From positions 2,094,001 to 2,158,000 of the forward strand of contig NZ_CP029002.1 in NCBI RefSeq assembly GCF_003073375.1: DNA of 64,000 bases, given 5' to 3'. Shown here piece after piece: positions 51 through 55,455 of the stretch. Source of the DNA: Lysinibacillus sp. 2017. GTDB taxonomy: Bacteria > Bacillota > Bacilli > Bacillales_A > Planococcaceae. The notes under the pieces were generated by a model, which ran no database searches, was not told the origin of the DNA, and saw only the letters and a list, made by a program, of their open reading frames with translations. Positions within the stretch are counted from its first letter, which is position 1, and each line of letters opens with the position of its first letter. The position numbers and the translations under genes were made by a program.

Positions 51-198
51 CATCTCAAAAAGGCACGAACGTTGATTTAACAACAATCGTACCTTTCAGA
101 TGTATTACCTAACTTTCATTTTGGAACGTTTATTAAGTTATTTCGTATACGTTATAAACCCTTGTTGCACTAAAGCACCTGTTAACACAATAAGAAAA
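51..198 (-). repeat. TCCCAAA element, copy 1
   Basis: The copy starts with a stem-loop (51-102, arms CATCTCAAAAAGGCACGAAC and its imperfect complement, loop ATTTAA). A degraded TTCCCAAA/TTTGGGAA box follows (105-129), then the tail TATAAACCCTTGTTGCAC (153-170). The hairpin-box-tail order matches the copies near 18.6 and 47.7 kb. It lies just downstream of the stalk-domain gene and could also act as its terminator. Confidence 0.6.
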
Positions 199-204
199 CA
201 CTTT

Positions 205-1047
205 TTATACAACTGTATTAATAATAACCGTCAGAAAGCCATTCACCGAAGCCCTATCAATTAATTGATGAATGGCTTGTCTTGCGGGATCACTAAACAA
301 ATACCATTGATTTTCAGTAGGCACATGAATCAAAACTAAGGGTTGACTAGGTAACATTTCATCATAACTTCGAACTAAAGTATAGATATCAAAACGTTCT
401 ACGCTGTTCCCTTCTTGGTCTAGAAAATCATATTGACCACCTTTATAATATTCACCAATTGAAGGATAACTTATCCACGTATAATTAGCAGGAGCTTCTA
501 CCTTACTTCCCTTATTTTCTACAAAAATATTATAAATGGCTTCGTTATAACCATTTCCTTTGATTTGCTGTACTACTCCGCCCATTGTCGCATGATATTC
601 GTGCTGCAATGCTTTGACTTTTACACCATCAATAACCAATGGCTTTGTATCAACCGTTACTGTACCGTTTTTGTAATTGACATTGCTGCCAAATGTTTCG
701 GCAATAAAACGCATCGGAACAAAAGTACGATCATTCTTCATGTATGGCTTTACATCAAGATGTTCTGTTTTACCGTTTTTCACCACTTTATTGCTATTAA
801 GTTTTAAGATTACTTTCATATCGTTTTTAGTAAACGTGACTTGCGAATCCGACCACTTGACGTTAGCTCCTAAATTTTCACTAATGACACGTAATGGAAC
901 CATTGTACGGTTACTCTTACTTTCGGGACTCACATCGGATACAACCGTAACACCGTCAATTTTTATTTGAGTCGTCGCTGCAAAAGTAGGTGACGAGGTA
1001 AGGATTAGAATTAATGTAAGAAATACGCCTGAGAACATTTTTTTCAT
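205..1047 (-). CDS. Secreted copper-amine-oxidase-N-type stalk-domain protein, copy 1
   Basis: This is a 280-residue exported protein. Residues 1-23 form a signal peptide ending in TFAA. Residues ~28-135 hold two tandem stalk units of the type found at the N terminus of copper amine oxidase-like proteins, seen in the paired motifs TMVPLRVISE and TFVPMRFIAETFG. The rest has no recognised catalytic domain. The family is usually extracellular or wall-associated, and no enzymatic role can be claimed. It is almost identical to the gene at 4676-5521, apart from a divergent stretch at about residues 185-200 and scattered changes near the C terminus. The ATG follows a long AT-rich leader. Function unknown, probably cell-envelope associated. 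Confidence 0.85.
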   Translation of the reverse strand: MKKMFSGVFLTLILILTSSPTFAATTQIKIDGVTVVSDVSPESKSNRTMVPLRVISENLGANVKWSDSQVTFTKNDMKVILKLNSNKVVKNGKTEHLDVKPYMKNDRTFVPMRFIAETFGSNVNYKNGTVTVDTKPLVIDGVKVKALQHEYHATMGGVVQQIKGNGYNEAIYNIFVENKGSKVEAPANYTWISYPSIGEYYKGGQYDFLDQEGNSVERFDIYTLVRSYDEMLPSQPLVLIHVPTENQWYLFSDPARQAIHQLIDRASVNGFLTVIINTVV

Positions 1048-1256
1048 TTTTTGATTACCCCTTTTTTAAAAAGTAAATATTCCTTAAAAAAATTATTGTT
1101 GAAACCTTAAGCTTTTAAAAGCAAAAAACTTTATTACTGATATACAAATTCAATAAAGGTTTATGAAGTTCCTTCATTCTTAAATATAATGCTTCAATTC
1201 CAAGAAATCGCCTAAAAGGCTTATCGTCACAAAAAATTGGTTGTTAAAACTTAAAC

Positions 1257-2891
1257 TCACTTATATGCTTCTTCTAATTTTTGAAGTTCTTCTTCTATTT
1301 TTTTTACATCAATCCTTACATATAAAGGTTCTACATTATTAAGTTCCGTTGGTAAGTCAGCAACTTCATCCCATCCGTGTAAAGATGTACCCAACATTTG
1401 TCGAATCTTTTCACTTCCAAATGGTAAGAAGGGATGTAATAATTGAGCTAAATTTTGAATAATGTAAACACTAGTTGCAAGCGTTTCTTCACATTTTTTA
1501 ATATGACTATTAACTGTAGTCCATGGTTGCTCTTCATCAAAGTAGCGATTTGATGTACGAATAAAGTTAAAAATAGCTTCAATTGCCTGTTTCATTTCAC
1601 CTGATTCGATATGTTCCCCAACTTTTGTATATAAGTGTTCCACATCTAATTTAATACTGTTGTTTACTTTTGCTTGAGGGACTTTGTGATTAAAGGATTT
1701 TGCAATGAATTTCAACGTTCTATTCACAAAATTGGCAAATGCACCTAATAGTTCACTGTTGTGACTGTAGATAAATTCTCGCCAAGAAAAATCGGCGTCA
1801 CGATTTTCAGGAGCATTGATTGTTAAAAAATAGCGAATCGAATCTGGATGATAATCTTTTAATATTTCTGGTACCCAAACTGCCCAATTTTGACTTGTGG
1901 AAAGTTTTCTTTTCTCTAATGTTAAATATTCATTTGAAACAATATGTGTTGGTAATCCCTCTTGACCTAGACCCATTAAGATTGCTGGCCAAATTACTGT
2001 ATGAAACGGAATATTATCTTTACCATGAATATAATAGGAAACGGCTTCCTCATTCCACCATTCGGAAACATCTTTTCCATTTTGTTTTGCCCATTCTAAA
2101 CTTGCTGTATAATATCCTGCTACTGCTTCAATCCAAACATAGATTTTCTTTTCTTCAAAACCATCTACAGGTACAGAAATACCATTAGGTAAGTCCCTTG
2201 TGACAGCCCTATCTGGTAATCCTTCAATTAAATAACGTTTAGTTAACTGTACGGCATTCTCTCGCCATCTTCCTTCACTAGATGCTTCATTAACAAAGTT
2301 CTCTAATTGCTGTTGAAAATGACTAAACTCATAATAATAATGTTCCGTTTCACGAATCTCTGGCTCATTTCCGCAAATTTTGCATGTTTTATCTTTCAAA
2401 TCAAGTGGATCTAGAATAGCTGAACAATTGTCACATTGATCTCCACGTGCTTTTGCCCCACAATTTGGACATGTTCCTTCCACAAATCTGTCTGGTAAAA
2501 ATTGATTATCTACTGTACAGTATGCTTGCTCAATCCTTTTTTTAAATAAAAAGCCATTCTCTAAAAGCTTTAAAAATATATTTTGTACAGCTTTATGATG
2601 ATGTGATGCATCAGTTCTTGTATATAGGTCATAGGTAAATCCTAATTCATTAAAGCATTGTAAGAATTCAGTATGATAGCGATCTGCTATTGCTGTGACT
2701 GTAGTATTTTCTTGATTAGCCCGTATTGAAATTGGCGTACCATTACAATCACTACCTGATACATAAAGCACATTTTCACCTTTTAAGCGATAATATCTTG
2801 CCAAAATATCTCCTGGCAAAAGTGCTGTTACATGACCTAAATGCAAAGAACCATTTGCATATGGCCAAGCGCCTCCGATTAATATATTCAT
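1257..2891 (-). CDS. metG: Methionine--tRNA ligase
   Basis: This enzyme charges tRNA-Met with methionine in the cytoplasm. The 544-residue protein has the class I signature HLGH (residues 17-20) and a KMSKS-equivalent KLSTS (329-333). A connective-peptide zinc region carries two knuckles ([16 protein letters not shown], then CKICG), and an anticodon-binding helical domain follows. It lacks the C-terminal tRNA-binding (OB-fold) extension of the ~650-residue MetRS usual in Bacillus. This is the type with two zinc knuckles, which some Bacillales carry as a second copy. A T-box leader with an AUG specifier lies directly upstream, so expression should rise when tRNA-Met is uncharged. Whether it is the only MetRS in the genome cannot be seen here. 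Confidence 0.97.
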
Positions 2892-2904
2892 TCTATGTTT
2901 CCCC

Positions 2905-3180
2905 CTTAAAATAAAAAAAGTCCTAACCGCAAATTGCGATTAGGACGAATTATCTCGTGGTACCACCTAATTTTACAAATAGCTTACACTATTTGCCTCT
3001 GCCAGTACGAACTCATACCGCCGCTGTTGTAACGAGTGCTCATCTCGTCGTAGCCTACATATCGGTACGAAGCTCAAAGGCCATGTTCAGTAAATTCGTT
3101 TTGCTTCATTTCCACCATCAGAAGCTCTCTATAAAAACTCCAATACTTACTCTTCCCTATCAACGCTAAATATTACAAAT
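2905..3180 (-). promoter_or_regulatory. T-box leader of metG, Met (AUG) specifier
   Basis: On the minus strand the core T-box sequence AGGTGGTACCACGAG lies at about 2953-2968. It is followed by a terminator hairpin (arms GTCCTAATCGC/GCGGTTAGGAC, about 2918-2946) and a T-run. Upstream are the stem I motifs AGAGAGCTTC and GGTGG, and the specifier region GAACATGGCC. Its ATG (plus-strand CAT, 3082-3084) matches the methionine gene downstream. Uncharged tRNA-Met should favour the antiterminator. Confidence 0.93.
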
Positions 3181-4569: not shown

Positions 4570-4664
4570 GTTAAAGTACATACGTTCCCAAAGCGTCTTT
4601 TTCTGGAGGTTTGCTTTATAAACCCTTGTTGCACTAAAGCACCTGTTAACACAATAAGAAAACC
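4570..4664 (-). repeat. TCCCAAA element, copy 2 (partial)
   Basis: A half box (ACGTTCCCAAAGCGTC, 4580-4595) is followed by the tail from 4616, which is identical over ~48 nt to the tail of copy 1 (153-200). No hairpin is left. The tail belongs to the larger duplication with the 0-1.2 kb region. Confidence 0.5.
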
Positions 4665-5673
4665 TTTTGTATACCTTATGGAACTGTATTAATAATAACC
4701 GTCACAAAGCCATTCACCGAAGCCCTATCAATTAATTGATCAATGGCTTGTCTTGCGGGATCACTAAATAAATACCATTGATTTTCAGTAGGCACATGAA
4801 TCAAAGTTTGGGGTGGAAGGGGCAACTTTTCATCATAACCTCGAACTAAATTATAGATATCAAAACGTTCTACGCTGTTCCCTTCTTGGTCTAGAAAATC
4901 ATATTGTCCACCTTTATAATACCCCCCAGTTGTGATGCTATGAACTGACCAGGTGTAATCTGAAGGCGGTTCGACCTTACTTCCTTTGTTTTCTATAAAA
5001 ATATTATAAATGGCTTCGTTATAACCATTTCCTTTGATTTGTTGTACTACTCCGCCCATTGTCGCATGATATTCGTGCTGCAATGCTTTAACTTTTACAC
5101 CATCAATAACCAATGGCTTTGTATCAACCGTTACTGTACCGTTTTTGTAATTGACATTGCTGCCAAATGTTTCGGCAATAAAACGCATCGGAACAAAAGT
5201 ACGATTATTCTTCATGTATGGCTTTACATCAAGAAGCTCCGTTTTACCATTTTTCACCACTTTATTGCTATTAAGTTTTAAGATTACTTTCATATCGTTT
5301 TTAGTAAGCGTGACTTGTGAATCCGACCACTTAACGTTGGCTCCTAAAATTTCACTAATGACACGTAATGGAACCATTGTACGGTTACTCTTACTTTCGG
5401 GATTCACATCGGATACAATCGTAACACCGTCAATTTTTATTTGAGTGGTTGCTGCAAAAGTAGGTGACGAGGTAAGGATTAGAATTAATGTAAGAAATAC
5501 GCCTGAGAACAATTTTTTCATTTTTTGATTACCCCTTTTTTAAAAAGTAAATATTCCTTAAAAAATTATTGTTGAAACCTTAAGCTTTTAAAAGCAAAAA
5601 AACTTTATTACTGATATACAAATTCAATAAAGGTTTATGAAGTTCCTTCATTCTTAAATATAATGCTTTAATT
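4616..5673 (-). repeat. Direct duplication of 153-1203 (stalk-domain gene and flanks)
   Basis: About 1.05 kb is nearly the same here and at 153-1203. The match covers the downstream element tail, the whole coding region, and ~150 bp of upstream leader, from CATTTTTTGATTACCCC to AAATATAATGCTT. The two copies are in the same orientation ~4.47 kb apart. Recombination between them could delete or amplify the metG and hydrolase genes that lie in between. Confidence 0.9.
4676..5521 (-). CDS. Secreted copper-amine-oxidase-N-type stalk-domain protein, copy 2
   Basis: This 281-residue paralogue of the gene at 205-1047 has the same signal peptide (ends TFAA), the same two stalk units (TMVPLRVISE, TFVPMRFIAETFG) and the same IDGVKVKAL linker. 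Differences concentrate at about residues 183-200 (VEPPSDYTWSVHSITTGG here, VEAPANYTWISYPSIGE in copy 1) and the last ~50 residues. The duplication extends into both flanks, so it is a segmental event and not independent acquisition. Its role is unknown; it is probably extracellular. A regional excess of amino-acid changes would suggest diversification of an exposed surface. Confidence 0.85.
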   Translation of the reverse strand: MKKLFSGVFLTLILILTSSPTFAATTQIKIDGVTIVSDVNPESKSNRTMVPLRVISEILGANVKWSDSQVTLTKNDMKVILKLNSNKVVKNGKTELLDVKPYMKNNRTFVPMRFIAETFGSNVNYKNGTVTVDTKPLVIDGVKVKALQHEYHATMGGVVQQIKGNGYNEAIYNIFIENKGSKVEPPSDYTWSVHSITTGGYYKGGQYDFLDQEGNSVERFDIYNLVRGYDEKLPLPPQTLIHVPTENQWYLFSDPARQAIDQLIDRASVNGFVTVIINTVP

Positions 5674-5808
5674 CATAATATTGTTAGCTTTTAAATGCAG
5701 CTATTCTGTGATACTATATACCAGTAGTCGGTATTACTTAATACCTTTACAACAAAGCACCTGATACAAAGAACGCTGATAGTTAGAAATATAAATGGAG
5801 TGGATTTT

Positions 5809-11124: not shown

Positions 11125-11385
11125 TTCGATTAGCACATTAAAAATAAAAAAACTCCGTCTCAACAAAGAGACGAAGTTCAATTCGCGGTACCACTCTAAT
11201 TAGTTAATATTTAAATTAACTCACTTAAACTATAACGGTAGTTGCCGTCTATACCTACTTAAATTCAGTATAAATACTCCTGGACGAGTTCGGGAATTTA
11301 CTGACTGTTTTTCACCAACCAACAGCTCTCTATACAATAAGTGTTCCTTATTACTTCCAATCATTGCAATCTTTTAAATTATTTA
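11125..11385 (-). promoter_or_regulatory. T-box leader upstream of the HIT gene
   Basis: On the minus strand AGAGTGGTACCGCG (about 11184-11197) is the T-box antiterminator core. A terminator follows (arms AACTTCGTCTC/GAGACGGAGTT plus T-run, 11147-11175). Upstream, AGAGAGCTGTTGGTTGGTG is the stem I GA-motif and distal loop, and GAACTCGTCC the specifier region. If the specifier is followed by a purine, as is usual, it is CTC (Leu, plus 11286-11288). The alternative register gives TCG (Ser). The T-box call is firm; the amino acid is not. Confidence 0.88.
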
Positions 11386-14543: not shown

Positions 14544-14703
14544 AGCCTCAATTAGAACTGTTATACAACCATAATGGACCTGGTCAATACCGTCTATCAT
14601 TATGATAAATGGGTTTAACAAAACCTCCTTCAAATTAAAATAAATCTTTTATTCGTTGGATTGTTTGAGTTATACAAGGGGTCACGTCTTAGGAGTGATA
14701 GTA

Positions 14704-15225
14704 TTGAATAAAAAGCATAAACTATTAATTTCAGCTTCAATATTTTTAAATATTGTCCTAATTTCTATTGTTGTAATGTCTGTTATTCAGATGAACAGTA
14801 TGACCGAACGGACACTTAAAACAAGCGCAATCGATAATTTATTTGAATTACACGAAATTATTTCTAAACAGGAAAACGAAAATTGGTCTGATTTAGCCTT
14901 ACTTTCGAAACAATTAGAAGCTACAGGTTTTGGAACTATGCATGCTCTCAACATAGGTGAAACGAGTAAAACCATAGACAAAGCTGATTCTGAAATACTT
15001 TTGAAGTTAAGTAACTACTTAATAAGATATTCTTCTATTTCTAAATCCAATCTTTCAGCAGAAACCGTTGAAGAAATGAAATCAGATTTAATAAGGTTCA
15101 ATACAATACTAGTTGAAAAAGGTTTTAACAACGAAGATGCATTTGGTAGCTGGATTAAACAAAATTATTTAAAAAAACTTAGAAATATTGTTTCAGAAAT
15201 CGAAAAAACAGAAGGTAATATTTAG
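14704..15225 (+). CDS. Membrane-anchored extracytoplasmic helical protein
   Basis: The ~173-residue protein has an N-terminal transmembrane helix (LLISASIFLNIVLISIVVMSV, residues ~6-26) followed by a helix-rich domain of ~140 residues predicted outside the cell. The start is TTG 14704, with AGGAG (14691-14695) 8 nt before it; an upstream TTG at 14656 has no RBS. No cysteine or catalytic motif is visible, and I do not recognise the family. It stands alone between the copy 3 and copy 4 repeats. Confidence 0.7.
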   Translation: MNKKHKLLISASIFLNIVLISIVVMSVIQMNSMTERTLKTSAIDNLFELHEIISKQENENWSDLALLSKQLEATGFGTMHALNIGETSKTIDKADSEILLKLSNYLIRYSSISKSNLSAETVEEMKSDLIRFNTILVEKGFNNEDAFGSWIKQNYLKKLRNIVSEIEKTEGNI

Positions 15226-15227: not shown

Positions 15228-15302
15228 ACCCTATTCCCTAAATTAAGGTTAGGAAACCAACAACCCCCATTCAATTGAATAGGGGTTATTTTGGAAGGTG
15301 AT
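15228..15302 (+). repeat. TCCCAAA element, copy 4
   Basis: The box ATTCCCTAAATTAAGGTTAGG is followed by a hairpin with arms AACCCCCATTC/GAATAGGGGTT and loop AATT, then ATTTTGGAAGG. The hairpin matches that of copy 13 (AATCCCCC, 49768). It also looks like a terminator for the gene at 14704. Confidence 0.6.
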
Positions 15303-18361: not shown

Positions 18362-18449
18362 ATCTCCTTGAAACCACGCTTTAGGCACCAAGAAATTGAG
18401 CAGTTGAAAGAAGAAAAGAAGTAAGTCGTCATTACTGTTATTAAACTGT

Positions 18450-18494
18450 AAAAAAGCCCGTAACCATTTATTTTTAACGGTTACGGGCTTTTTC
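18450..18494 (+). terminator. Terminator of the LuxR gene
   Basis: The arms AAAAGCCCGTAACC and GGTTACGGGCTTTTT enclose an AT-rich loop. Confidence 0.85.
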
Positions 18495-18554
18495 AATTGC
18501 TTGGAATACTGTTCATAACATGGTCAAAGCTACAGCCCCTATAATTTTTGTCCA

Positions 18555-18660
18555 GACATCACACAGAAAGCCCTAAACGCTGTTAAATCAGCGTTTAGGG
18601 CTTTTACACGTATTTCCAAAGCTTTCATTTGGGAACGTTTTTTAGCTAATATTGATACTT
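18555..18660 (-). repeat. TCCCAAA element, copy 5
   Basis: A hairpin (18567-18604) has arms AAAGCCCTAAACGCTG/CAGCGTTTAGGGCTTT and loop TTAAAT. The box TTCCAAAGCTTTCATTTGGG (18614-18633) and AACGTTTTTTAG follow. Reverse-complemented, it is nearly identical over ~85 nt to copy 10 at 22.6 kb. Confidence 0.7.
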
Positions 18661-18683
18661 ATCGCTAGCTAAGCAATAAAGTT

Positions 18684-19124
18684 TTAAAAATCTATATAAA
18701 AAGGGTGATTACTCTCATCTAGACAGCATTCAATTCTTTGTCGGAAATTCCCCACTGTTACCATTTTTAAAGCTTCATCAATCGGGAAAAATCCTACTTC
18801 TAAACTTTCGGATGAAGTAGTGAATTTACCTCCAATAGGTCTTGCTAAAAAAAGTGTATTACAAATCGATTTCCTTACATTTTGGAATATCCCACAAAAC
18901 TTTACTATTTCTACATCTATACCTGTTTCCTCTTTTGTTTCCCTAATAGCAGCTTCTTTTAAAGATTCACCTTCTTCTACTTGCCCTCCCGGCATCTCCC
19001 AGCCTCTCAAAGGTCCTTTGATTAATAGAATTTCTCTTTTATCATTAAGTACAATCGTTGCTGCGGAAACAATGTGTTTTGGTGGTATGTAGACTTTTGA
19101 TATACTTTGTTCCAATAAAAACAC
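18684..19124 (-). CDS. Nudix hydrolase
   Basis: The 146-residue pyrophosphohydrolase has a full Nudix box at residues ~47-69 (GGQVEEGESLKEAAIRETKE then ETGI), matching GX5EX7REUXEEXGU. The core strands include VSAATIVLNDKREILLIKG. Substrates of the family are nucleoside diphosphates linked to another moiety; the exact one is not predictable. AGAAGGGGTG upstream of the ATG is the RBS. It is a single gene between repeat copies 5 and 6, cytoplasmic. Confidence 0.9.
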   Translation of the reverse strand: MFLLEQSISKVYIPPKHIVSAATIVLNDKREILLIKGPLRGWEMPGGQVEEGESLKEAAIRETKEETGIDVEIVKFCGIFQNVRKSICNTLFLARPIGGKFTTSSESLEVGFFPIDEALKMVTVGNFRQRIECCLDESNHPFYIDF

Positions 19125-19180
19125 CCCTTCTCTTCATAATATTTATATTTTACTATATTTTCCTGTATTCTCAATTTTAG

Positions 19181-19222
19181 AAAGTCCCCAAAGCAACATC
19201 GCTTTGGGAACGTCTGTCTTAA
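19181..19222. repeat. TCCCAAA element, copy 6 (box only)
   Basis: GTCCCCAAAGCAACATCGC is followed by TTTGGGAACG. This is the palindromic box without a following hairpin. It lies upstream of the Nudix gene. Confidence 0.5.
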
Positions 19223-19269
19223 ACTAAATTACAAGTAAATTAGGGAGTACTTTTTTTTGATTAATTTAA

Positions 19270-19312
19270 AAAGAACCAATCGTCAATTTATTAAGTGACG
19301 ATTGGTTCTTAT
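19270..19312. terminator. Terminator of the MBL hydrolase gene
   Basis: The arms AAGAACCAATCGTCA and TGACGATTGGTTCTT have an AT-rich loop. Confidence 0.85.
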
Positions 19313-19331
19313 AATTCATATTTTTATCAAA

Positions 19332-20180
19332 TTAAAGTGATTGAATAATATGGTCATTTACAAATGCTTTTATATAAAATAACTCATCATCATTTGGATT
19401 TCTTTTATTCTCTAGCTTGAAGGACTCTATTGCATTTTCTAAAGAAGAAGATTTGGCCGCTTCACTTGCTGCTCTTAACTCTCCCCAAAAGGTTTGCATC
19501 TCCTCTAAGTCACAAATTGATTCATGACCAAGTAGGAACGCTTCAGCATTGTATTTTTGAACAGCTTCAATCATTGGTAATAATAAAGATTTTTTATAAT
19601 GGAATAAAGAATTTGTCGTTGTACCATATACACAATCACCTAAAAAAATTACTTTCTCATCAGGAATATAAATGATTGTAGCGTCATCTGAATGAGTACT
19701 GTTGATTTTTTCAAGTACACAAATTTTATTTCCTAAATCTAGAGTTAACGTTTCTTCAAAGATTATATGTGGAGAGTTTAACTTAAAATTTTCCCTATTT
19801 GGAATCTCTGTTTGTATAATCTCTATACACTTATCGCTCATCAATTTAGTCTGCGAATACGTTTGTAGTGAACTGTCACCAAATGTGTAACTTTGCCATA
19901 CTTTTAACAATTCGTTTGTTTGACTATTCACAATAACCGTTGCATCAAATTCATTCATGCCAAGGAAATGGTCCCAATGTGCATGGGTAATGACCACATA
20001 TTTAACTGGGGGTACATTTAGTTTCTCAATTTCTAGTAAAAAATCCTTCGCATGCTGAGTAGAGTTACCACAGTCTATTATTAAACTATATTGGTCGCCA
20101 CATACCAGGCCTAATGTTGGTCGGTCGTTTTCATCTTGATTAGACATATAATAAATAGTCTCGCTCAATTTATTTAACAT
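19332..20180 (-). CDS. MBL-fold metallo-hydrolase
   Basis: The 282-residue metallo-beta-lactamase-fold protein carries the motif ITHAHWDHFLG (H-A-H-W-D-H, residues ~64-69). A second histidine lies in NSTHSDDATIIY (~164), a bridging Asp in VIFLGDCVYG (~182), and a late histidine in FLLGHESIC (~221). There is no signal peptide, so it is cytoplasmic, unlike secreted beta-lactamases. A C-terminal helical extension of ~60 residues (AASEAAKSSSLENAIESF) is typical of Zn-dependent hydrolases of this subgroup. The substrate is unknown. A solitary gene with its own terminator. Confidence 0.88.
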   Translation of the reverse strand: MLNKLSETIYYMSNQDENDRPTLGLVCGDQYSLIIDCGNSTQHAKDFLLEIEKLNVPPVKYVVITHAHWDHFLGMNEFDATVIVNSQTNELLKVWQSYTFGDSSLQTYSQTKLMSDKCIEIIQTEIPNRENFKLNSPHIIFEETLTLDLGNKICVLEKINSTHSDDATIIYIPDEKVIFLGDCVYGTTTNSLFHYKKSLLLPMIEAVQKYNAEAFLLGHESICDLEEMQTFWGELRAASEAAKSSSLENAIESFKLENKRNPNDDELFYIKAFVNDHIIQSL

Positions 20181-20423
20181 GTTTTATTTTCCTCATTTCT
20201 AAATGTTTATAAGCTGAAAAGAGAAAATCCATGTTTATCTTATTGTTAATAAAATAGTTTAGGATTTTCTCGGATTATTTGTTTACCATTGGACTAGTAC
20301 ATCCTTGTTATATAAGTAAAATTATAACATAATATATATTATAAGGATTATTTGTTAAAAGTTAATTTATAATATCGAAATACTCTAATTCAATATTATT
20401 TAATATGCAAAATAAATATTGAA
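20181..20423. other. AT-rich intergenic region
   Basis: This is the head-to-head spacer before the gene at 20553. It should hold the promoter of the MBL gene on the minus strand. I see no gene or structured element in it. Confidence 0.3.
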
Positions 20424-20460
20424 AACATCCCCAAATGTGCAAGCTTGGGAACTTGTTTTG
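20424..20460 (+). repeat. TCCCAAA element, copy 7 (box only)
   Basis: TCCCCAAATGTGCAAGCTTG then GGAACTTGTTTTG is a box with a shortened right arm. It lies ~95 nt before the gene at 20553. Copy 9 has the same right side (TTTGGGAACTTGTTTTG). Confidence 0.5.
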
Positions 20461-20552: not shown

Positions 20553-20858
20553 ATGGAAGGTATATTAAGAAAATCAGGCATCTATGGCTTATTACTGGGA
20601 TTAGCTCTTTCCATTATGTTTGTCGATTATAAAGATGTTACAGAGGTTGGAAATGGTAGTTATGTAACGACATATACACCTTTAATTGAATATATAGTGA
20701 CAATCTTACAGGTTAGCATTATAGGAATGTTTTTAGGTATATTTATTGGTTGGAAAGGCTATGAAAGAAAAGAAAAAACACAACAAGAAAAATCATATTA
20801 TTTTCCATTCTTTTTTACTGTCTTTCTCGTTTCATGTATTTTAATGTATGTTTTTTAA
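20553..20858 (+). CDS. Small membrane protein
   Basis: The 101-residue protein has three hydrophobic helices at ~9-26, ~45-70 and ~82-100, with a central charged loop (GYERKEKTQQEKS). AAAAGGAGAATAATTTA precedes the ATG. It is alone between copies 7 and 8 of the repeat. No family recognised. Confidence 0.7.
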   Translation: MEGILRKSGIYGLLLGLALSIMFVDYKDVTEVGNGSYVTTYTPLIEYIVTILQVSIIGMFLGIFIGWKGYERKEKTQQEKSYYFPFFFTVFLVSCILMYVF

Positions 20859-20896: not shown

Positions 20897-21110
20897 TTAT
20901 GCAAATACATACAAATAGCGTTCCCAAATGAAAGCTTGGTAACATTTCAAACAGCGACAAGCACTGTGAAATCAGTGTTTGTTGCTGTTTTTATAGAGAA
21001 TAACGCTCTGAGACGCTGTGAGAAATTATTTTAAAGAGGACTGTTCGATCCACTTGTTCTGAATGGCATGAAATGTTACCAAACGTCGGTTTGGGAATGT
21101 TATTCGATAA
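20897..21110 (+). repeat. TCCCAAA element, copy 8 (long form)
   Basis: The left end GCGTTCCCAAATG/AAAGCTTGGTAACATTTC (20918-20948) and right end GAAATGTTACCAAACGTCGG/TTTGGGAATG (21070-21099) are imperfect inverted repeats of one another. Inside are a hairpin (20950-20990, arms CAGCGACAAGCACTG/CAGTGTTTGTTGCTG) and a conserved stretch AAAGAGGACTGTTCGATCC (21034-21052). Copies at 52.4 and 54.0 kb share this plan. Confidence 0.75.
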
Positions 21111-21835: not shown

Positions 21836-22498
21836 ATGTTAAAAAGGATATTGATTATTATTGGAATACTTCTAGTGGGAATAACATCATTTAGCCTGTT
21901 AAATAAGCCTTTAGAGGACAATACTGCTGTTGCAAATAAAGAGGAACAAAAACCTTCATTTACTAAAGAAGAAAAAATAATTCATTCTATATTGAACTCA
22001 GTAACGGAAAAAATTCATGAGAAATATGAGGATTTAAAGTTTTCTGTAGGTTCGACCTCAGCGAAAGAATTGAGGGTACAAGTTTCGGAGAATGAGGAAT
22101 ATTTTAATTCAGTAAAAGAAAATATTGAATCCATTGCAAAGAGTGAAATTAAATCTTCCATATTAAAAGACTATACAGTTATTGTAATGAGATTGGATTT
22201 ATCTTTTATGACTGAAGAACATAAAAAAATGGACGACGAACTTTTACTCATAACAAAGTCTTTAAATGAAGGTCTTAAAGCAGATTACGACGTATTTAAA
22301 AATATAACTACTAGTTCTCAAAAATCCATTACTATTTATACATCAATAAAAGGTTCAGGTAAAAAAGCACAAAAGTTGGCAATGGATATTGAAGAAACAA
22401 TAAATAAAATCTTACAATCTAAAGAACTAAATTCAGTACCTCAAATTGACTCTTATGAAATTAAAGTATTAAATGCCAAAGGGAAAGTAGTAAATTAG
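21836..22498 (+). CDS. Membrane-anchored protein, possibly DUF4030-like
   Basis: The 220-residue protein has an N-terminal transmembrane or signal-anchor helix (ILIIIGILLVGITSFSLL) followed by a hydrophilic linker. The extracytoplasmic domain (residues ~45-220) shows two alternating helix/strand halves (VTEKIHEKYEDLKFSVGSTSA... and DVFKNITTSSQKSITIYTSIKGSG...). That pattern resembles DUF4030 proteins of Bacillus; I hold this family call loosely. GGAGGG precedes ATG. A single gene between copies 9 and 10. Confidence 0.65.
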   Translation: MLKRILIIIGILLVGITSFSLLNKPLEDNTAVANKEEQKPSFTKEEKIIHSILNSVTEKIHEKYEDLKFSVGSTSAKELRVQVSENEEYFNSVKENIESIAKSEIKSSILKDYTVIVMRLDLSFMTEEHKKMDDELLLITKSLNEGLKADYDVFKNITTSSQKSITIYTSIKGSGKKAQKLAMDIEETINKILQSKELNSVPQIDSYEIKVLNAKGKVVN

Positions 22499-22554: not shown

Positions 22555-22688
22555 TATTGTGTAACAACGATTTATAAAGTATACAAAATAAACCCAATAA
22601 ACGTTCCCAAATGAAAGTTTGGGAATACGTGTAAAAGCCCTAAACGTTGATTTAACAGCGTTTAGGGCTTTTGTGTGATGCATTGTTT
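22555..22688 (+). repeat. TCCCAAA element, copy 10
   Basis: The tail in reverse (GTGTAACAACGATTTATAAA, GTATACAAAATAAACCC) is followed by the box CGTTCCCAAATGAAAG/TTTGGGAATACG (22602-22630). A hairpin (22633-22672) has arms AAAAGCCCTAAACGTTG/CAGCGTTTAGGGCTTTT and loop ATTTAA. It is the inverted twin of copy 5. Confidence 0.75.
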
Positions 22689-23251: not shown

Positions 23252-23656
23252 ATGCAATATAAGGTTTGGAATGGTGCATCAGCCATTATAATTAAAGACA
23301 ATCGTGTATTAATGATACGTACAAAGGATTCCAATAGTTGGAGCATTCCTTCAGGTGGAGTAGAAGTTGGGGAAACCTCAAGGGAAGCTTGCATACGCGA
23401 AATTGCAGAAGAAACTGGTTATGAAGCTAAGATTGTTAAAGAATTACATACTAAAAAAACAATTATCAAAGATTATAAAGTAATTACACAATATTTTTTA
23501 TGTGAAATAACTGGTGGTAAAGTTCAATATCAAGACCCTGATGAAGAAATCGAAGAAATTTCTTGGAAGAATAGCTATGAAATTTCAAAATTAATTCATA
23601 AATATCCTGAAGACCAAGAAGTTATTGAGCAATTATTATCTAATTTAAATTCTTAA
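23252..23656 (+). CDS. Nudix hydrolase
   Basis: The 134-residue Nudix protein has its box at residues ~36-58 (SGGVEVGETSREACIREIAE then ETGY). The N-terminal strand GASAIIIKDNRVLMIRT and the ITQYFLCEITGGKV segment are typical of small cytoplasmic Nudix enzymes. GGGAGCTCGAGATT before the ATG gives an RBS. The substrate is not predictable. It is unrelated in detail to the Nudix gene at 18684. Confidence 0.9.
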   Translation: MQYKVWNGASAIIIKDNRVLMIRTKDSNSWSIPSGGVEVGETSREACIREIAEETGYEAKIVKELHTKKTIIKDYKVITQYFLCEITGGKVQYQDPDEEIEEISWKNSYEISKLIHKYPEDQEVIEQLLSNLNS

Positions 23657-23683: not shown

Positions 23684-23765
23684 CGTTCCTAAGTAAAAGT
23701 TTTGGAACACACCAAAAAGCCACAAATGTTGTGAAAATCAACGTTTTGTGGCTTTTTCAAGAGTT
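23684..23765 (+). repeat. TCCCAAA element, copy 11
   Basis: The box AACGTTCCTAAGTAAAAG/TTTTGGAACA is followed by a hairpin with arms AAAAAGCCACAAATGTTG/CAACGTTTTGTGGCTTTTT and loop TGAAAAT. It also serves as a plausible terminator for the Nudix gene. Confidence 0.65.
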
Positions 23766-47707: not shown

Positions 47708-47866
47708 AAAAAACATTCACAAGAAAAAGCACGAAACGCTGTTAAATCAACGTTTGTGCCTTTTTAAACTGTCCCCAAACTTTCATTTGGGAACGTTTTT
47801 TAGGTTTATTTTGCATACTTTATAAATCCTGTTGTACTAAAGCACGCTGATAGTTTAAGTAGAATC
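47708..47866 (-). repeat. TCCCAAA element, copy 12
   Basis: A hairpin (47723-47765) has arms AAAAAGCACGAAACGCTG/CAACGTTTGTGCCTTTTT and loop TTAAAT. The box TCCCCAAACTTTCATTTGGG, AACGTTTTTTAGGTTTATTT, ACTTTATAAATCCTGTTG and AAAGCACGCTGATAG follow in order. It is the cleanest copy of the hairpin-box-tail form. Confidence 0.75.
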
Positions 47867-47967: not shown

Positions 47968-48966
47968 CTATTTCCAATCAGATATTACCCCGAATGTAGA
48001 TGCTTTAATGTATGTTTGCCCTTGTAATAACTCTAATTGCTCTGATGTGCCAGTTACTACGGCCCCAATAATTTTTACATCACTTTTATCTAAAGTGCCA
48101 TTTTCCCCTATTAAAGATTGATATACTTGGTCTATTTCCCACTCAAAGTTCTTACTTTCTCGAAGACCCTCAATGTTTCCAATAAAAGAGCCAATCTCAT
48201 CGTTTTGAGATTGTTGAGCTTTTGGTTTTGATTGCTCTGAATGAAATCCATAAATGAACGGAGAATCAGATTGAATGGTACCCTGTGCTTGCCTCATAAA
48301 ATCTAATCGCTCATTTGTATAGGCATCTACCCACCACCACACTACCTGCACATTAGGAGGGAGAATACTTTTAATTTCATCAAGATTATATGCTTGATTA
48401 AAAGATAAGCCGATTTCTACTAAAGTGTTTTCTTCAAATTGATTTAGCTCACTTAGGCTATCCTTATAAATATCATATGATATTTCAGGATGATAAAACA
48501 GCATCTCTCTATCACCAGTGTAAGCATTAAACCTTTCGAGTTGATGTGATTCTATGAGTGATTCAGATCCATCTAATTGAATTGATCCATATAAACCGTA
48601 ATTTCGCGTAAAAGTACCGAACAAATTGTAACTTCCTTCAATTGGCTCCCAAATATAAGGTCTGTTTCCAAGTACCTTATAGGTCTTTATCTGTATTTCT
48701 CCTCCTAACCAATTAGGATTATATGTTTGATTACTAATATGAACATTAGGTGCACTGATTTTGTTAAACTGCACAATATCATCCATTGTTTTATGGGCAT
48801 TATAAGATGACAACTGACTAAAACTATACAATAAAATTACTAGAACAATTGGCGTAACAATTATCGTAATGCCAATAATTTTTATCGTTGACCAAAACTT
48901 AGCTTTTCTCATTATTTTTTTTGCTTGATTTTCATCAAATAAGAAACTATTTTGATTCTTATTCAT
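47968..48966 (-). CDS. Anti-sigma factor (Sigma_reg_N/Sigma_reg_C type)
   Basis: The ~332-residue membrane protein has a cytoplasmic N-terminus (NSFLFDENQAKKIMRKAKFW), one transmembrane helix (~32-55, IKIIGITIIVTPIVLVILLY), and a large extracytoplasmic domain. The C-terminal part holds VYQSLIGENGTLDKSDVKII and GAVVTGTSEQLELLQ, typical of the sigma-factor-regulator C-terminal domain. The start ATG 48966 overlaps the sigma stop by 8 nt. It is the likely membrane anchor that sequesters the sigma factor upstream. Confidence 0.85.
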   Translation of the reverse strand: MNKNQNSFLFDENQAKKIMRKAKFWSTIKIIGITIIVTPIVLVILLYSFSQLSSYNAHKTMDDIVQFNKISAPNVHISNQTYNPNWLGGEIQIKTYKVLGNRPYIWEPIEGSYNLFGTFTRNYGLYGSIQLDGSESLIESHQLERFNAYTGDREMLFYHPEISYDIYKDSLSELNQFEENTLVEIGLSFNQAYNLDEIKSILPPNVQVVWWWVDAYTNERLDFMRQAQGTIQSDSPFIYGFHSEQSKPKAQQSQNDEIGSFIGNIEGLRESKNFEWEIDQVYQSLIGENGTLDKSDVKIIGAVVTGTSEQLELLQGQTYIKASTFGVISDWK

Positions 48967-49462
48967 AATAAACATCCTCCTCAAATCGTCCTATAAACTT
49001 TTCCTTTGCGCGTCTGACATGGGTTTTTAGCGTATTCTCATTCATGTTCATTAAAGCTGAAATCTCTTTGTACGATAATCCCAACTCATATTTTAGAATT
49101 AATAATTCTTGATGCAAGATGGACAGCGTTTTTAGCGTGTCTCGTACGTCCTTTGATTTTTCTTTTTTCAAAATCTGCATTTCTGGGAGATTAGTCAATG
49201 CTGTTAGCTGAACTCCATCAATATCGGTTGTTGGATGGCGCTTGTCTTTTCTCTTGAGGTCATAAAACTGGTTGGTAGCTACACGGTATAACCAGCTCAT
49301 TACTTTTTCCGATTGAATCCCATTTTTATATAATAAAAATTTATAACATGTATCTTGAACAATATCTTCTGCATCCTCATGGGCTAGTCCACGTTTTCTC
49401 AAATAGCAATATAACATAGTTCCTACTTGCTGCAGAAATTCATTCATTGATTGCTTTGCCAT
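48959..49462 (-). CDS. ECF RNA polymerase sigma factor
   Basis: The 167-residue ECF sigma has region 2 (RGLAHEDAEDIVQDTCYKFL) and region 4 (LHQELLILKYELGLSYKEIS, MNMNENTLKTHVRRAKEKF). AAGGGAGGTAGAC precedes the ATG. It is the first gene of a coupled sigma/anti-sigma operon, the third such pair in the window. The signal and targets are unknown. Confidence 0.92.
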   Translation of the reverse strand: MAKQSMNEFLQQVGTMLYCYLRKRGLAHEDAEDIVQDTCYKFLLYKNGIQSEKVMSWLYRVATNQFYDLKRKDKRHPTTDIDGVQLTALTNLPEMQILKKEKSKDVRDTLKTLSILHQELLILKYELGLSYKEISALMNMNENTLKTHVRRAKEKFIGRFEEDVYYE

Positions 49463-49705: not shown

Positions 49706-49875
49706 GAGGTAAAAGTTTTCCAAACAGTGGTTTGAGGACATACTGTTCATAAGCAGTCAAAATCCCCCTATTCAATTGAATGGGGGGATTGGTTCCCTAA
49801 CTTGATTTGGGAACGTTATTTTGAATGATTCTGCATACTTTATAAATCCTTGTTGCACTAAAGGGCACCCGTTAG
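49706..49875 (-). repeat. TCCCAAA element, copy 13
   Basis: The outer box TTTTCCAAACAGTGGTTTGA (49719-49738) is followed by a hairpin with arms AATCCCCCTATTCAATT/GAATGGGGGGATT and the inner box TTCCCTAACTTGATTTGGG. The tail is CTTTATAAATCCTTGTTGCA. Its hairpin matches copy 4 and its tail copies 1, 2 and 12. Confidence 0.7.
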
Positions 49876-50835: not shown

Positions 50836-52113
50836 TTAAGCAGCTGCTTGAAGACTGGCGAAATCGTTCATCATTTGTTGTACGTTAAACATTGTTTTCT
50901 TTTTACACAAGGCATGTAAAATCTTGAGTAACTTGCCACACAGGACGACAATCGATTGCTTCTTGCGAAGTGGATTCACTGTACGTGTTGTGTAGTATTC
51001 ATGTAATTGCTTAAATGCTTGATTATGTCGAATTAGGGGCATCATCACACGAAACAAGAGTGCTCGTAGCTTACGTCTTCCTCGTTTAGAAATGCGCTTT
51101 TGTCCCTTTTGCTTACCAGAAGAGTTTTCACGCAATGTAAGTCCCGCGAGTTTAATTAATTGGCGTGGATGCTCATATTGTGTTAAAGAACCGACTTCTG
51201 AAAGTAAATCGACAACCGTTACATCCCCGATTCCTGGTATAGATGCTAAATAATCATAATCTGTCATTTGTTTCGCTAGCTCTGTGAGCTGAACCGTTAA
51301 TTCATCAAGTTGAGCTTGCATCAATTTGATTTGCGAAAGCAGTGTGGCGATTTCATATTTGGCCATCACTAAACCTTCTGTTAATCCAATCGAGTTTTGA
51401 GCCGCTTCAACTAATTGTTTTGCCTTTGGTAGTTGTGGGCTTTTCATTCCTTCTACTTGGCGATATAAGAAGAGTAGTTCATCTGGTGATTTCCCTTTAA
51501 TATCCGAAGGTAGTGGCGTCATTTCGAGCGCCGCATACGCCATTTTCCCGAACTTCTTAAAGACTTGTGGAAACTCGGGAAAGAAGCGATCTAACCAACG
51601 AATCAGGCGATTTCGAAGGGCATTTAAATCTTCTTGAATTTTCGAGCGCAATGTCGCGCCATTTCGTAATTCCGCTTCCACACCTTCTAAAAGACGAGGA
51701 TAACTGAAGCGTCCATCTCGCATTAAACGTGCGATGACGAGTGCATCTTTTTGGTCATTTTTAGTTTGGAGATTATCGTCCAATTCCTTTGAACGGTTGA
51801 CGTGCATCGGATTGACCATCACAAACGGAATCCCGTAGTTCGTTAAAAACGCTGCTAAGTTCATCCAATAGTGACCTGTTGGCTCGAAACCAACAAGGAT
51901 TCCCTGTTTTTCATGGGCTACTTTTAACGTAAGTAGACGTTCATAAAAGCCTTCAAATCCAACGCGCGATTGCAGTATTGGAAATGATTTTTGGAGCACA
52001 CGGCCACGATCATCAATTGCACAAGCGAAGTGTTTGTGTTTGGCAATGTCGATGCCGATGACTAAAGTATTTTCAGAAACTTGATTAATTTTTTCATTCG
52101 TATTAAAATTCAT
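50836..52113 (-). CDS. IS110-family transposase (DEDD)
   Basis: The 425-residue protein has an N-terminal RuvC-like DEDD domain with D22 (VIGIDIAKHKHFA), Glu in GILVGFEPTGHYW, and the Asp pair in NDQKDALVIARLM. A coiled-coil middle (~225-290) is followed by the C-terminal Transposase_20 domain (LASIPGIGDVTVVDLLSEVG, LAGLTLRENSSGKQKGQKRI) with the conserved Ser that likely attacks DNA. It is full length for the family, with no frameshift. It excises and inserts the element through a circular form. Confidence 0.95.
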   Translation of the reverse strand: MNFNTNEKINQVSENTLVIGIDIAKHKHFACAIDDRGRVLQKSFPILQSRVGFEGFYERLLTLKVAHEKQGILVGFEPTGHYWMNLAAFLTNYGIPFVMVNPMHVNRSKELDDNLQTKNDQKDALVIARLMRDGRFSYPRLLEGVEAELRNGATLRSKIQEDLNALRNRLIRWLDRFFPEFPQVFKKFGKMAYAALEMTPLPSDIKGKSPDELLFLYRQVEGMKSPQLPKAKQLVEAAQNSIGLTEGLVMAKYEIATLLSQIKLMQAQLDELTVQLTELAKQMTDYDYLASIPGIGDVTVVDLLSEVGSLTQYEHPRQLIKLAGLTLRENSSGKQKGQKRISKRGRRKLRALLFRVMMPLIRHNQAFKQLHEYYTTRTVNPLRKKQSIVVLCGKLLKILHALCKKKTMFNVQQMMNDFASLQAAA

Positions 52114-52384: not shown

Positions 52385-52672
52385 GCTGCATTAGTGCGAT
52401 AAGGATTTATAAAGCATACAAAAATTAACCTAATAACGTTCCCAAATAAAAGCTTGGTAACATTTCAAACAGCGACAAGCACTGTTAAATCAGTGTTTAT
52501 CGCTGTTTTTATTAGAAAATAATGCTCTGAGATGTTGCGAGAAATCATTTTAAAGAGGACTGTTCAATCCACTTGTTCTGAAGAGCTGTAACATATAAAT
52601 AGAATCTCAATGAAATGTTCCCAAACAGTGGTTTTGGAACCATATACTTACAATTTACGTCTATATTAAAAA
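52385..52672 (+). repeat. TCCCAAA element, copy 14 (long form)
   Basis: The tail reversed (AAGGATTTATAAAGCATAC) and the left box CGTTCCCAAATAAAAG/CTTGGTAACATTTC are followed by a hairpin (52468-52507, arms CAGCGACAAGCACTG/CAGTGTTTATCGCTG, loop TTAAAT). The conserved AAAGAGGACTGTTCAATCC comes next, then the right box TGTTCCCAAACAGTGG/TTTTGGAACC. The right end (TTACAATTTACGTCTA) runs up to the next gene. Confidence 0.75.
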
Positions 52673-53984: not shown

Positions 53985-54262
53985 TTTTGTTCATTAAAGT
54001 TTTATAAGATATACATAATCATTCATAATAATGTTCCCAAATCAAAGTTAGGTAGCATTTTAAACAGCGACAAACACTTTTAATTCAGTGTTTGTCGCTG
54101 TTTTTTATAGAAAATAATGCTCTGGGACTCTGTGAAAAAATTGTTTAAAGAGGACTGTTCGATCCACTTATTCTGATAGTTGCTTAAAAAACTGTGTCTA
54201 ACTTTTAGGGGTCAATTCAACAGCGGTTTGGGAACTTTCTATTTACAATTTATGTCTAGATT
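53985..54262 (+). repeat. TCCCAAA element, copy 15 (long form)
   Basis: The left box TGTTCCCAAATCAAAG/TTAGGTAGCATTTT is followed by a hairpin (arms CAGCGACAAACACT/AGTGTTTGTCGCTG), then TAGAAAATAATGCTCTG and AAAGAGGACTGTTCGATCC, which are shared with copies 8 and 14. The right end is CAACAGCGGTTTGGGAAC, then TTTACAATTTATGTCTA leading into the lipoprotein gene. Confidence 0.75.
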
Positions 54263-54284
54263 GATAAATGGAAGGGGTTTTGTT

Positions 54285-54710
54285 ATGAAGAAACGATTAT
54301 TGTCAGTACTATTAGCTTTTTGTAGTGTTACTCTAATTGCTTGTCAGTCTCAAAATGAAGAGATTACATTATTAGATAATGTATCTGATATTTCAATTTC
54401 TAAATCTAATGGTTATGGTGGATTAAATGAAAACTATATCCTTTCGATTAACCGAGAAGAAGCAATATCAGGTTTCAAGGAAGTTCTAAAAAAAGCAAAA
54501 GGAAAAAATCAAGATGTTGATGTGATTAACGAAAAACCAGACTACGACATATTGATTCGTTATGAAAATGGGGATACTCACGGATTACATCTCTTACTTG
54601 GAAATGCGGGGGATGAAAGCGTAATAACCTATACCGGTCACGAAAAATATGGCTATATTGTTTCGCCTGAAGATACAAACGAATTAAGAAAGTTATTAGA
54701 TGCTCAATAA
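54285..54710 (+). CDS. Putative lipoprotein
   Basis: The 141-residue protein has a lipobox TLIAC (Cys ~20) after a hydrophobic signal peptide (KKRLLSVLLAFCSVT). The mature part holds YDILIRYENGDTHGLHLLLG, which suggests a small beta domain, and EDTNELRKLL at the end. The start is ATG 54285, because GGAAGGGGTTTTGTT is immediately upstream; the longer frame runs through the repeat and is rejected. Function unknown. Confidence 0.82.
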   Translation: MKKRLLSVLLAFCSVTLIACQSQNEEITLLDNVSDISISKSNGYGGLNENYILSINREEAISGFKEVLKKAKGKNQDVDVINEKPDYDILIRYENGDTHGLHLLLGNAGDESVITYTGHEKYGYIVSPEDTNELRKLLDAQ

Positions 54711-54800
54711 AACCCTATTTAACTATCGGGAGAGAGTTAGTTGAACAAGAAAAAAGCTTTACTCCATTCTTGAAGTAAAACACCCGTTACTTTGAATTTA

Positions 54801-55310
54801 CTATTTACAGTAACTAATATTGTTTGTTAGAACACTTGGTCCTAACTTATTAGTTTTGGAATTTGAGAGGCGTACCTGAACTTCGACATTCTTCATTTCT
54901 GCTGTAATTAAATCAAATCGTCCAGCCCAACTTGGACCATTATCCTCTGGGGTTGGATAAAGCTTAAAACGCCAACTTATTTCTTTGGGAATGAACGCAA
55001 AGCCTTCATAGCTATCAAAGTCACCATAAGAAGATGGTTTGGGAAGATGAACAGCAAGAATACTTATATTAGTTCTTGCAAAACTTGGTGGGTTTAATTG
55101 CACTTTATAGATTAATGCTACACCTTTTGCATTCGTCAGACTTTTATCAACAGATTCCAAAATTAGACTACAAGGCTCTGAAATGGCTTCTAATAATTGT
55201 TCACTTTCTTCGTTTATTGCCTTTCCGTTTGTTGATTTTCCCAAAGTTACATAGAACAACGTCGTTAGACTTAATAGTAATAGTACACATATTAATGATA
55301 TTTTTTTCAT
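54801..55310 (-). CDS. Secreted or membrane-anchored protein, unknown family
   Basis: The 169-residue protein has an N-terminal hydrophobic signal-anchor (ISLICVLLLLSLTTLFYVTL). The rest is mostly beta-rich, with the cysteines EPCSLIL and ISYCK (last residues) that could form a disulfide. TAGGTGGTTAG precedes ATG. It is convergent with the lipoprotein gene at 54285. No domain recognised. Confidence 0.65.
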   Translation of the reverse strand: MKKISLICVLLLLSLTTLFYVTLGKSTNGKAINEESEQLLEAISEPCSLILESVDKSLTNAKGVALIYKVQLNPPSFARTNISILAVHLPKPSSYGDFDSYEGFAFIPKEISWRFKLYPTPEDNGPSWAGRFDLITAEMKNVEVQVRLSNSKTNKLGPSVLTNNISYCK

Positions 55311-55375
55311 CTAACCACCTACCTAATTTTAGGTAGTATATCCTTGTTGTAAGACAATATTCTTGTTTCCCTAAA

Positions 55376-55455
55376 GTCCCCAAAGCGATGTTTGGTAACT
55401 TTATTTCGTCTAACGCTGTAAGTCCTCGCGTTTGGATGAAAGCCCTAAAAGTCAA
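55376..55455 (+). repeat. TCCCAAA element, copy 16 (partial)
   Basis: GTCCCCAAAGCGATGTTTGG then TAACTTTATTTCG, followed by CTAACGCTGTAAG and GAAAGCCCTAAAAG, which are degraded pieces of the hairpin. It is upstream of the secreted-protein gene on the minus strand. Confidence 0.45.

Follow-up and report, generated by a model that had tools for sequence, protein, structure and literature searches.

When short palindromic boxes recur between the genes of a chromosome, is it the repeat or the bordering gene that moves, and which enzyme would act on the boxes? This question is raised by 64,000 nucleotides of Lysinibacillus sp. 2017 (the window; positions 2094001-2158000 of a 3.74-Mb single-contig genome, NZ_CP029002.1, labelled G000:C1). 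An initial annotation had described here at least 16 intergenic elements made of a palindromic box, a hairpin, and an AT-rich tail, and had read them as mobile elements, structured RNAs, or both. The boxes are probably, at about three chances in four, the core recombination sites of a site-specific tyrosine recombinase that serves a cassette-moving system. The enzyme is most likely XerX, the name given in this analysis to a third Xer-type recombinase besides XerC and XerD. This reading draws on features read from the sequence: the anatomy of the sites, gene order, breaks of homology inside boxes, the same cassette at several loci, the co-occurrence of XerX and boxes, and a palindrome beside xerX.

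Boxes and their order around genes

The dispersed repeat family is real. A two-armed box is recognisable at 14 of the 16 places first listed, namely 51 (box at 105-126), 15228, 18555, 19181, 20424, 20897, 21755, 22555, 23684, 47708, 49706, 52385, 53985, and 55376, with deviating spacers at 19181 (10 nt) and 20424 (8 nt). Two places are weak: 4570 has a single arm (TTCCCAAAGCG at 4585) and a conserved tail, and 13928 has a degenerate right half only. The earlier list lacked two boxes, at 21076-21097 and 52618-52639, and a degenerate third near 54216. Boxes are far commoner than chance by every control used. The window holds 14 boxes with a 6-nt spacer and at least 13 of 16 arm bases, compared with a mean of 0.6 and a maximum of 3 in 40 simulated first-order Markov sequences, and 17 occurrences of the arm TTCCCAAA, compared with a mean of 4.5 and a largest count of 11 in 100 shuffles. 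Genome-wide, the pattern TTCCCAAA-N{2,16}-TTTGG has 27 forward and 27 reverse matches, palindromic sites counting on both strands, while a reversed control gives 3 and 1.

Four hairpins were folded, with z-scores of -4.9 to -6.7, and the tail motif has six matches at no more than three mismatches in the window (0.04 expected), one of which (25741) has no neighbouring box. Neither condition named in advance as refuting the family holds: the boxes are not at random frequency, and they have common sequence outside any stem. A terminator scan of 18400-24100 found five candidates (shuffle mean 2.5); all five are boxes, with no long hairpin among them.

The boxes form the inner part of 28-bp dif-like sites with an 11-6-11 layout, conserved inner arms, and a variable centre. 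Consensus sequences were built from 101 3'-type, 74 5'-type, and 46 XerX-adjacent sites, the first two kinds being those into which most boxes sort by their 6-bp centre. The 3'-type consensus is AAAtAACG-TTCCCAAA-TgAAAG-TTtGGgAA and the 5'-type consensus TTcCCAAA-CgaCGC-TTTGGGAA-cgTTtTt; the gene-facing arm is the better conserved one in both. The 3'-type sites stand mostly behind a stop codon and the 5'-type sites mostly ahead of a start, and this ordered flanking of genes is a feature that the initial annotation did not contain. Order was counted in 16 loci of the genome itself (85 boxes, 41 of 3' type and 28 of 5' type; the island-free loci L046-L050 were dropped) and in 40 loci of relatives (154 boxes, 64 and 46). 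A gene end lies on the gene side of 34 of 41 3'-type boxes in the former and 56 of 64 in the latter, and a gene start on the gene side of 21 of 28 and 43 of 46 5'-type boxes, respectively. Boxes inside open reading frames (ORFs) of at least 100 amino acids (aa) are few (2/85 and 1/154). Between adjacent cassettes there is either a single box or a 3' site followed by a 5' site, in many cases with a strong hairpin between the two. Such inter-gene elements of 94-222 bp open with TTCCCAAA-like and close with TTTGGGAA-like arms, and a related element of ~210 bp terminates many islands. The hairpins behind 3'-type boxes may end cassette transcripts.

The sites and genes of the window are as follows, with the strand where assigned.

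105..126, minus: 3'-type site TTCCAAAATGAAAGTTAGGTAA behind gene 205-1047, then a hairpin and an island-end element
205..1047, minus: cassette-type gene, 280 aa, copper amine oxidase N-terminal domain; no 5' box recognised
4585..4634: decayed site, one arm TTCCCAAAGCG and the conserved tail
15234..15255: degenerate 3'-type site and C-rich hairpin element, behind gene 14656-15225
18567..18605, minus: hairpin (z -6.7), possible terminator of the Nudix cassette
18614..18635, minus: 3'-type site of the Nudix cassette
18684..19124, minus: Nudix hydrolase cassette gene, 146 aa
19185..19210, minus: 5'-side site of the Nudix cassette, 10-nt spacer
20428..20451, plus: 5'-side site, 8-nt spacer, of the first cassette in a three-gene array
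20553..20858, plus: cassette gene, 101 aa, membrane protein by eye; Pfam match only below cut-off
20921..20942, plus: 3'-type site TTCCCAAA-TGAAAG-CTTGGTAA
20951..20989, plus: hairpin between 3' and 5' sites, z -6.5
21076..21097, plus: 5'-type site TTACCAAA-CGTCGG-TTTGGGAA
21146..21709, plus: GNAT acetyltransferase cassette gene, 187 aa
21759..21780, plus: 5'-type site CACCCAAA-CACCAC-TTTGGGAA, a lone box between two cassettes
21836..22498, plus: cassette gene, 220 aa, no Pfam family
22604..22625, plus: 3'-type site, a perfect palindrome, with island-end element and hairpin
23252..23656, plus: cassette-type gene, Nudix hydrolase, 134 aa; no 5' box recognised
23686..23707, plus: 3'-type site and hairpin
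47772..47793, minus: 3'-type site and hairpin (47726-47764), island end
47968..49462, minus: cassette genes for a sigma factor (167 aa) and a sigma factor regulator (338 aa)
49717..49738, minus: 5'-type site
49793..49813, minus: 3'-type site, 5-nt spacer, belonging to the neighbouring unit
52439..52460, plus: 3'-type site TTCCCAAA-TAAAAG-CTTGGTAA and hairpin
52618..52639, plus: 5'-type site TTCCCAAA-CAGTGG-TTTTGGAA
52698..53894, plus: cassette genes for a 94-aa protein (membrane, by eye) and a 262-aa methyltransferase
54034..54055, plus: 3'-type site, hairpin, and a 76-bp conserved element
55377..55398, minus: 5'-type site ahead of gene 54801-55310 (minus)

Homology breaks, cassette genes, and possible vehicles

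The same cassettes recur at several loci, with homology that changes at the boxes. A cassette for proteins of 237 and 91 aa occurs at 181.5-186.4 kb and at 2.321-2.323 Mb, and its two 100% identical blocks, of 849 and 422 bp, lie at 181.5-184.5 kb in the first copy; homology begins inside the 5' box and stops inside the 3' box, and one copy is split by IS110-type and DDE-type insertions. The two copies of a sigma-factor cassette, at 1.684 and 2.249 Mb, match at 98.5% over 1856 bp, and their homology breaks at 3' boxes. Window cassette 21773-22622 is 91% identical to its counterpart in genome G144, with both ends at boxes in both copies, and 88% identical to that in G032, with the 3' box alone retained. 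The GNAT gene next to it in the array (21146-21709) has an 82% identical homologue elsewhere in G032 (L143), 0.7 kb from the nearest box, and homologous genes occupy different islands and species. Blocks of homology with a length of 350 nt or more and an identity of 85% or more number 69, some of them IS (insertion sequence) copies or cut by a locus edge; of their 123 usable ends, 10 fall no more than 15 nt from a box centre in both copies (0.011 on average at random). Because genes are covered by homology that stops inside boxes, the mobile unit would be the gene cassette and not the repeat alone.

Of the earlier reading, mobility is supported; a free-standing non-autonomous repeat and a structured regulatory RNA are not. 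An Rfam scan of the window at gathering thresholds gave two T-box leaders and nothing else (RF00230, minus strand, 2938-3172 and 11164-11373). Neither L''-L' nor R''-R' arms covary (p 0.95 and 1.0) in 12 elements, a small sample drawn by one selection rule.

Cassette genes appear accessory. Ten cassette proteins were scanned; those passing Pfam cut-offs are Nudix (two), GNAT, methyltransferase, sigma factor, sigma factor regulator, and copper amine oxidase N-terminal proteins, and three reach no family cut-off. Lipoproteins and small membrane proteins were read by eye among 69 box-near ORFs. The 280-aa gene at 205-1047 has a 93.6% duplicate around 4676-5521, and its G032 homologues sit between boxes. 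The whole duplicated stretch (152-1200 and 4616-5674, 93.6%) retains the 3' box in one copy and a broken site in the other. A 2188-bp, 100% identical duplicate, with its copies ~110 kb apart in the window's genome (L037 16150-18337 and L039 4978-7165), lies beside cassette islands. An IS110-family transposase gene (50836-52113) stands between two cassette units of the window, and an insertion that splits the 181-kb cassette is related to it.

We infer XerX as the enzyme, double-stranded exchange at matching centres, plasmids as vehicle, and hairpins that end transcripts. A gene with its own start region would have a 5'-type site on one side and a 3'-type site on the other, each with its own kind of 6-bp centre. 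Like sites (3' with 3', 5' with 5') would recombine, so that one or a few genes at a time are excised and inserted. An exchange of 3' with 3' sites would move the inter-gene element and the gene, and an exchange of 5' with 5' sites the gene and its downstream element; homology breaks of both kinds are present. Repeated exchange would build short arrays in many islands, and plasmids would carry cassettes from cell to cell.

Two plasmids bear the elements: nine boxes are found on pSSIL1, a 14.9-kb plasmid of Solibacillus silvestris, and one good box on a plasmid of Lysinibacillus capsici, in the part examined. G108 has three smaller contigs (126, 51, and 15 kb), probably plasmids, with five boxes in the examined part of each. 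On pSSIL1 (L249, 3668-6404), genes for an ArsR/SmtB-family regulator and a heavy-metal P-type ATPase stand between a 5'-type and a 3'-type box. Plasmid pFN9B (L316) has a 3'-type box at 4013, behind a dynamin-family and a hypothetical gene; its predicted fexA lies 1.7 kb from the box, with no good box around it. A phage vehicle was considered and rejected, as a 211-bp element had no match in a phage collection.

XerX, the palindrome beside its gene, and the terminus

A box with perfect arms stands just ahead of a 324-aa ORF (317 aa from ATG) at 1865922-1866896, outside the window. The encoded protein, XerX, is Xer-like and falls below each equivalog cut-off scored: 224 bits of 335 for XerC, 219 of 330 for XerD, 135.4 of 267 for XerS (NF003462), and, for integron integrase, 88.2 of 265 (TIGR02249) and 57.7 of 435 (NF011946). 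It comes nearest to the cut-off of NF040815 (archaeal XerA type; recombinase/integron integrase), at 196.2 of 220, and XerA and XerD are its nearest solved relatives by sequence. Proper XerD (392 bits, cut-off 330) and XerC (363, cut-off 335) are encoded elsewhere in the same genome.

XerX and the boxes occur together. A single XerX match (E 1e-70) was found in 91 of 200 family genomes, the match in G028 being partial, and the box pattern in 96, with no control match in the table. Both are present in 90 genomes, XerX only in one, boxes only in six, and neither in 103 (Fisher p about 2e-48, uncorrected for shared ancestry). Five genomes of group g11 (G090, G113, G119, G168, and G179) have one or two box matches and no XerX match; these may be cassettes received from relatives, or chance matches.

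Of 152 relatives, the search retained the best 80. The 47 named loci examined come from Solibacillus, Lysinibacillus, Metasolibacillus, Psychrobacillus, Viridibacillus, Rummeliibacillus, Kurthia, and two Bacillus-named strains. A palindrome begins 58-81 bp upstream of the XerX match in 42 of the 47, lies farther off in four, and is missing from one locus. At L173, L175, L176, and L189 it is 0.8-2.2 kb from xerX or missing from the locus, which points to insertion or loss between site and gene. The outer arms of the XerX-adjacent site resemble those of cassette sites, and the site falls, by eye, in the presumed xerX promoter region. No second box (at least 14 of 16 arm bases) was found in the 47 loci, within ~3 kb on each side where the contig allows, and the 16-kb XerX locus of the genome itself has one box.

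In each of 20 single-contig genomes, the distance between dnaA and XerX is 0.44-0.50 of the circle; 12 of these genomes were placed with sizes rounded to 0.1 Mb. A recognisable dif-like site was found with a shorter query in 13 of these 20, including 8/8 of the Lysinibacillus group (g14) and 0/6 of the host's own genus. Because XerX lies opposite dnaA and coexists with XerC, XerD, and, mostly, dif, it is an extra, terminus-linked Xer system, the terminus being judged from the distance to dnaA. Canonical dif was rejected as the source of the boxes: the genome has no match to a B. subtilis-type dif at three or fewer mismatches. A dif-like half, ATTATGTAAACT, stands directly behind the xerX stop (L035 8880-8915), with like sequences in the same genus and two further genera. 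Cassette islands lie near the XerX site in 11 of 16 cases in the genome itself (p 0.11), 15 of 15 in G032, 7 of 8 in G144 (p 0.035), and 4 of 4 in G114 (p 0.06), as counted from hand-listed strict sites in these four genomes.

XerX homologues occur in Clostridia at 37-46% identity, and 22 XerX-type proteins (11 from Clostridia, 11 from Planococcaceae) form one clade (100/98) apart from the XerC and XerD of the window's genome, in a tree with some long outside branches. A Clostridia palindrome of other letters (e.g., ATTATACAAAA-N6-TTTTGTATAAT) occupies the same place beside the gene in 8 of 13 loci, and a ninth was found in a separate genome search. The perfect or near-perfect 11-6-11 palindromes stand upstream in L214, L216, L218, L220-L224, and L233; L215, L217, and L219 have none at the locus, and L225 offers no upstream sequence to judge. 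Each of the eight Clostridia genomes searched contains exactly one perfect copy, at coordinates that match the recombinase locus, and 18 further matches with one or two mismatches compare with 11 control matches. No cassettes were seen in these eight genomes. Since arms and recombinase changed together, the comparison argues that the palindrome is the site of XerX and that cassettes are a Planococcaceae addition. At roughly even odds, a terminus-linked third Xer system, single-site in Clostridia and Planococcaceae, gave rise in the latter to an integron-like cassette economy: the site would have been copied, two new characteristic centres gained, and many accessory genes moved between islands and plasmids. 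In this scenario, the exchange of cassettes may be coupled to the processing of the terminus when cells divide.

Unoccupied loci, rival explanations, and known systems

Loci that lack a cassette in relatives were compared at three places. The exonuclease-gene island is the best candidate for an empty site among the three. All 15 relatives of the genus have no box counterpart within 1.5 kb of this gene, and in G138 the gene right after the exonuclease gene is an orthologue (84%) of a 191-aa gene whose place in the window's genome is past the island and one further gene. At the locus of a 612-aa gene (matched in 16/16 genomes), 15 of 15 relatives have no box within 1.5 kb downstream and a helix-turn-helix (HTH) gene comes next (translated in six); in the window's genome, this gene lies 6.4 kb past the island, with other genes in between. 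At the serS locus of G180 (31 of 32 genomes matched, 30 loci compared), the cassette is missing from the 29 others, one of which (L280) has an unrelated weak box, and the right flank differs as well.

Several observations weigh against a XerX-driven cassette system. A perfectly clean empty site was found at none of the three loci, where other genes differ too. Another gene stands next to the exonuclease gene in 13 of the remaining 14 relatives, so this place is variable in general. By an automatic criterion, both ends lie at boxes in only one of the 69 homology blocks, and 16 of the 85 boxes in the genome itself and 44 of the 154 in relatives match neither centre type and were excluded from the order count. 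XerX is missing from 6 of the 96 box-bearing genomes, its site has a centre (TttATA) that differs from those of cassette sites, and xerX is distant from the cassette islands. Finally, the unlike centres of the two site types leave a one-step move of a 5'/3'-bounded gene unexplained.

The boxes could instead belong to a dif-module system run in trans by normal XerC and XerD, with XerX as a bystander. In size, in their 11-6-11 layout, in their inverted pairing around genes, and in their presence on plasmids they fit the Acinetobacter dif modules as passages of one account describe them (PMC6449649), and both proteins are present above their family cut-offs. However, the box arms (TTCCCAAA) are unlike the dif arms of relatives (CCTATAAT / TTATGTAAACT), and the boxes track XerX (90 of 91 genomes) and adjoin xerX, so this explanation is improbable. 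A true integron, in which XerX is the integron integrase, the boxes are folded attC, and the xerX-side site is attI, is quite unlikely. In attC the arms are ordered R''-L''...L'-R', and this layout is found between cassettes; an integrase with an adjoining site and small accessory genes also fit. Yet XerX reaches 88 bits in an integron-integrase model with a cut-off of 265, its loci lack a second box, and some cassette junctions have a single box. Strand folding of the attC kind is not supported either, L''-L' covariation being absent in the small sample of 12 elements.

Transposons resembling miniature inverted-repeat transposable elements (MITEs) are marked by an element present or absent between unchanged flanks and by target-site duplication. 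That the boxes are such non-autonomous elements, or intergenic repeats merely lying between genes, is about as unlikely as an integron: the end arms of the 94-222-bp elements do resemble short terminal inverted repeats, but genes are inside the mobile unit, flanks switch at boxes, single boxes occur, and the boxes are tied to a tyrosine recombinase gene. The 22-mer palindromes that adjoin starts and follow stops, one of them in the presumed xerX promoter region, could also serve a DNA-binding protein as the operators or the insulator/terminator pairs of a regulon. With boxes behind stop codons, homology breaking inside them, clustering in islands, and copies on plasmids, this is very improbable.

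The XerX system is best read, from sequence comparison, as functioning like dif modules or integrons without belonging to either; neither the integrase model nor the dif arms nor the primary site, which has no array, places it there. Acinetobacter dif (pdif) modules are described, in PMC6449649 and PMC12907356, as 28-bp Xer sites with a palindromic inner part and a variable 6-bp centre, inverted around genes, with one module found in several contexts on plasmids and chromosomes; they are said to be characteristic of Acinetobacter and not commonly found outside it (PMC6449649). The present sites share the 11-6-11 layout with conserved inner arms and variable centre, the genes between inversely oriented sites, and the same cassette in different contexts. 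Unlike dif modules, they have another arm sequence, judged by sequence only not to be host XerC/XerD dif, and come in two kinds whose centres are characteristic and dissimilar; in addition, a third Xer lies near the terminus with a palindromic site of its own, and the host belongs to the Bacillota.

Integrons and clusters of attC sites lacking integron integrases (CALIN) are portrayed in part of PMC8618304 as arrays of small accessory genes with recombination sites, a recombinase-side site, and integrase-remote arrays. Here too, a small ORF and a recombination site form a cassette, the recombinase has an adjoining site, and arrays lie far from it; in contrast to integrons, XerX is under the integrase cut-off and its site has no array. 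The single-protein systems XerS/difSL, XerH/difH, and XerA, with a dif-like site linked to the gene (portions of PMC5357621 and PMC2731167), are matched by the site beside xerX and the terminus location. Unlike them, XerX coexists with XerC, XerD, and, in 13 of 20 genomes, a recognisable dif, and it differs from XerS and XerA in its model scores (135 of 267 and 196 of 220) and in a site copied into gene cassettes. Switching by mycoplasma Xer1 is an inversion under a promoter. There, a Xer-family recombinase accompanies lipoprotein genes, and a variable-surface-protein locus switches expression (PMC2268961, in part). Recombinase family and lipoprotein genes are shared with that phase variation, whereas the islands described here are dispersed and differ in gene content.

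Among the top-ranked results of a literature search, with subscription journals and preprints outside its scope, no account of such a system in Planococcaceae was found. IntegronFinder 2.0 lists one complete Firmicutes integron (Limnochorda) and a few CALIN, and integrons are called extremely rare in Firmicutes, in the passages concerned (PMC9024848). Gene-shuffling systems of an integron-like kind are almost unheard of in this group. The present one raises the question of what role a third, terminus-located Xer has beside XerCD and, mostly, dif. If the reading is true, Solibacillus, Lysinibacillus, and their relatives would have invented modular gene capture independently and would offer a Gram-positive model for cassettes arising from a Xer site. 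The system would then help to account for the spread of Nudix, GNAT, sigma factor, lipoprotein, and metal transport genes.

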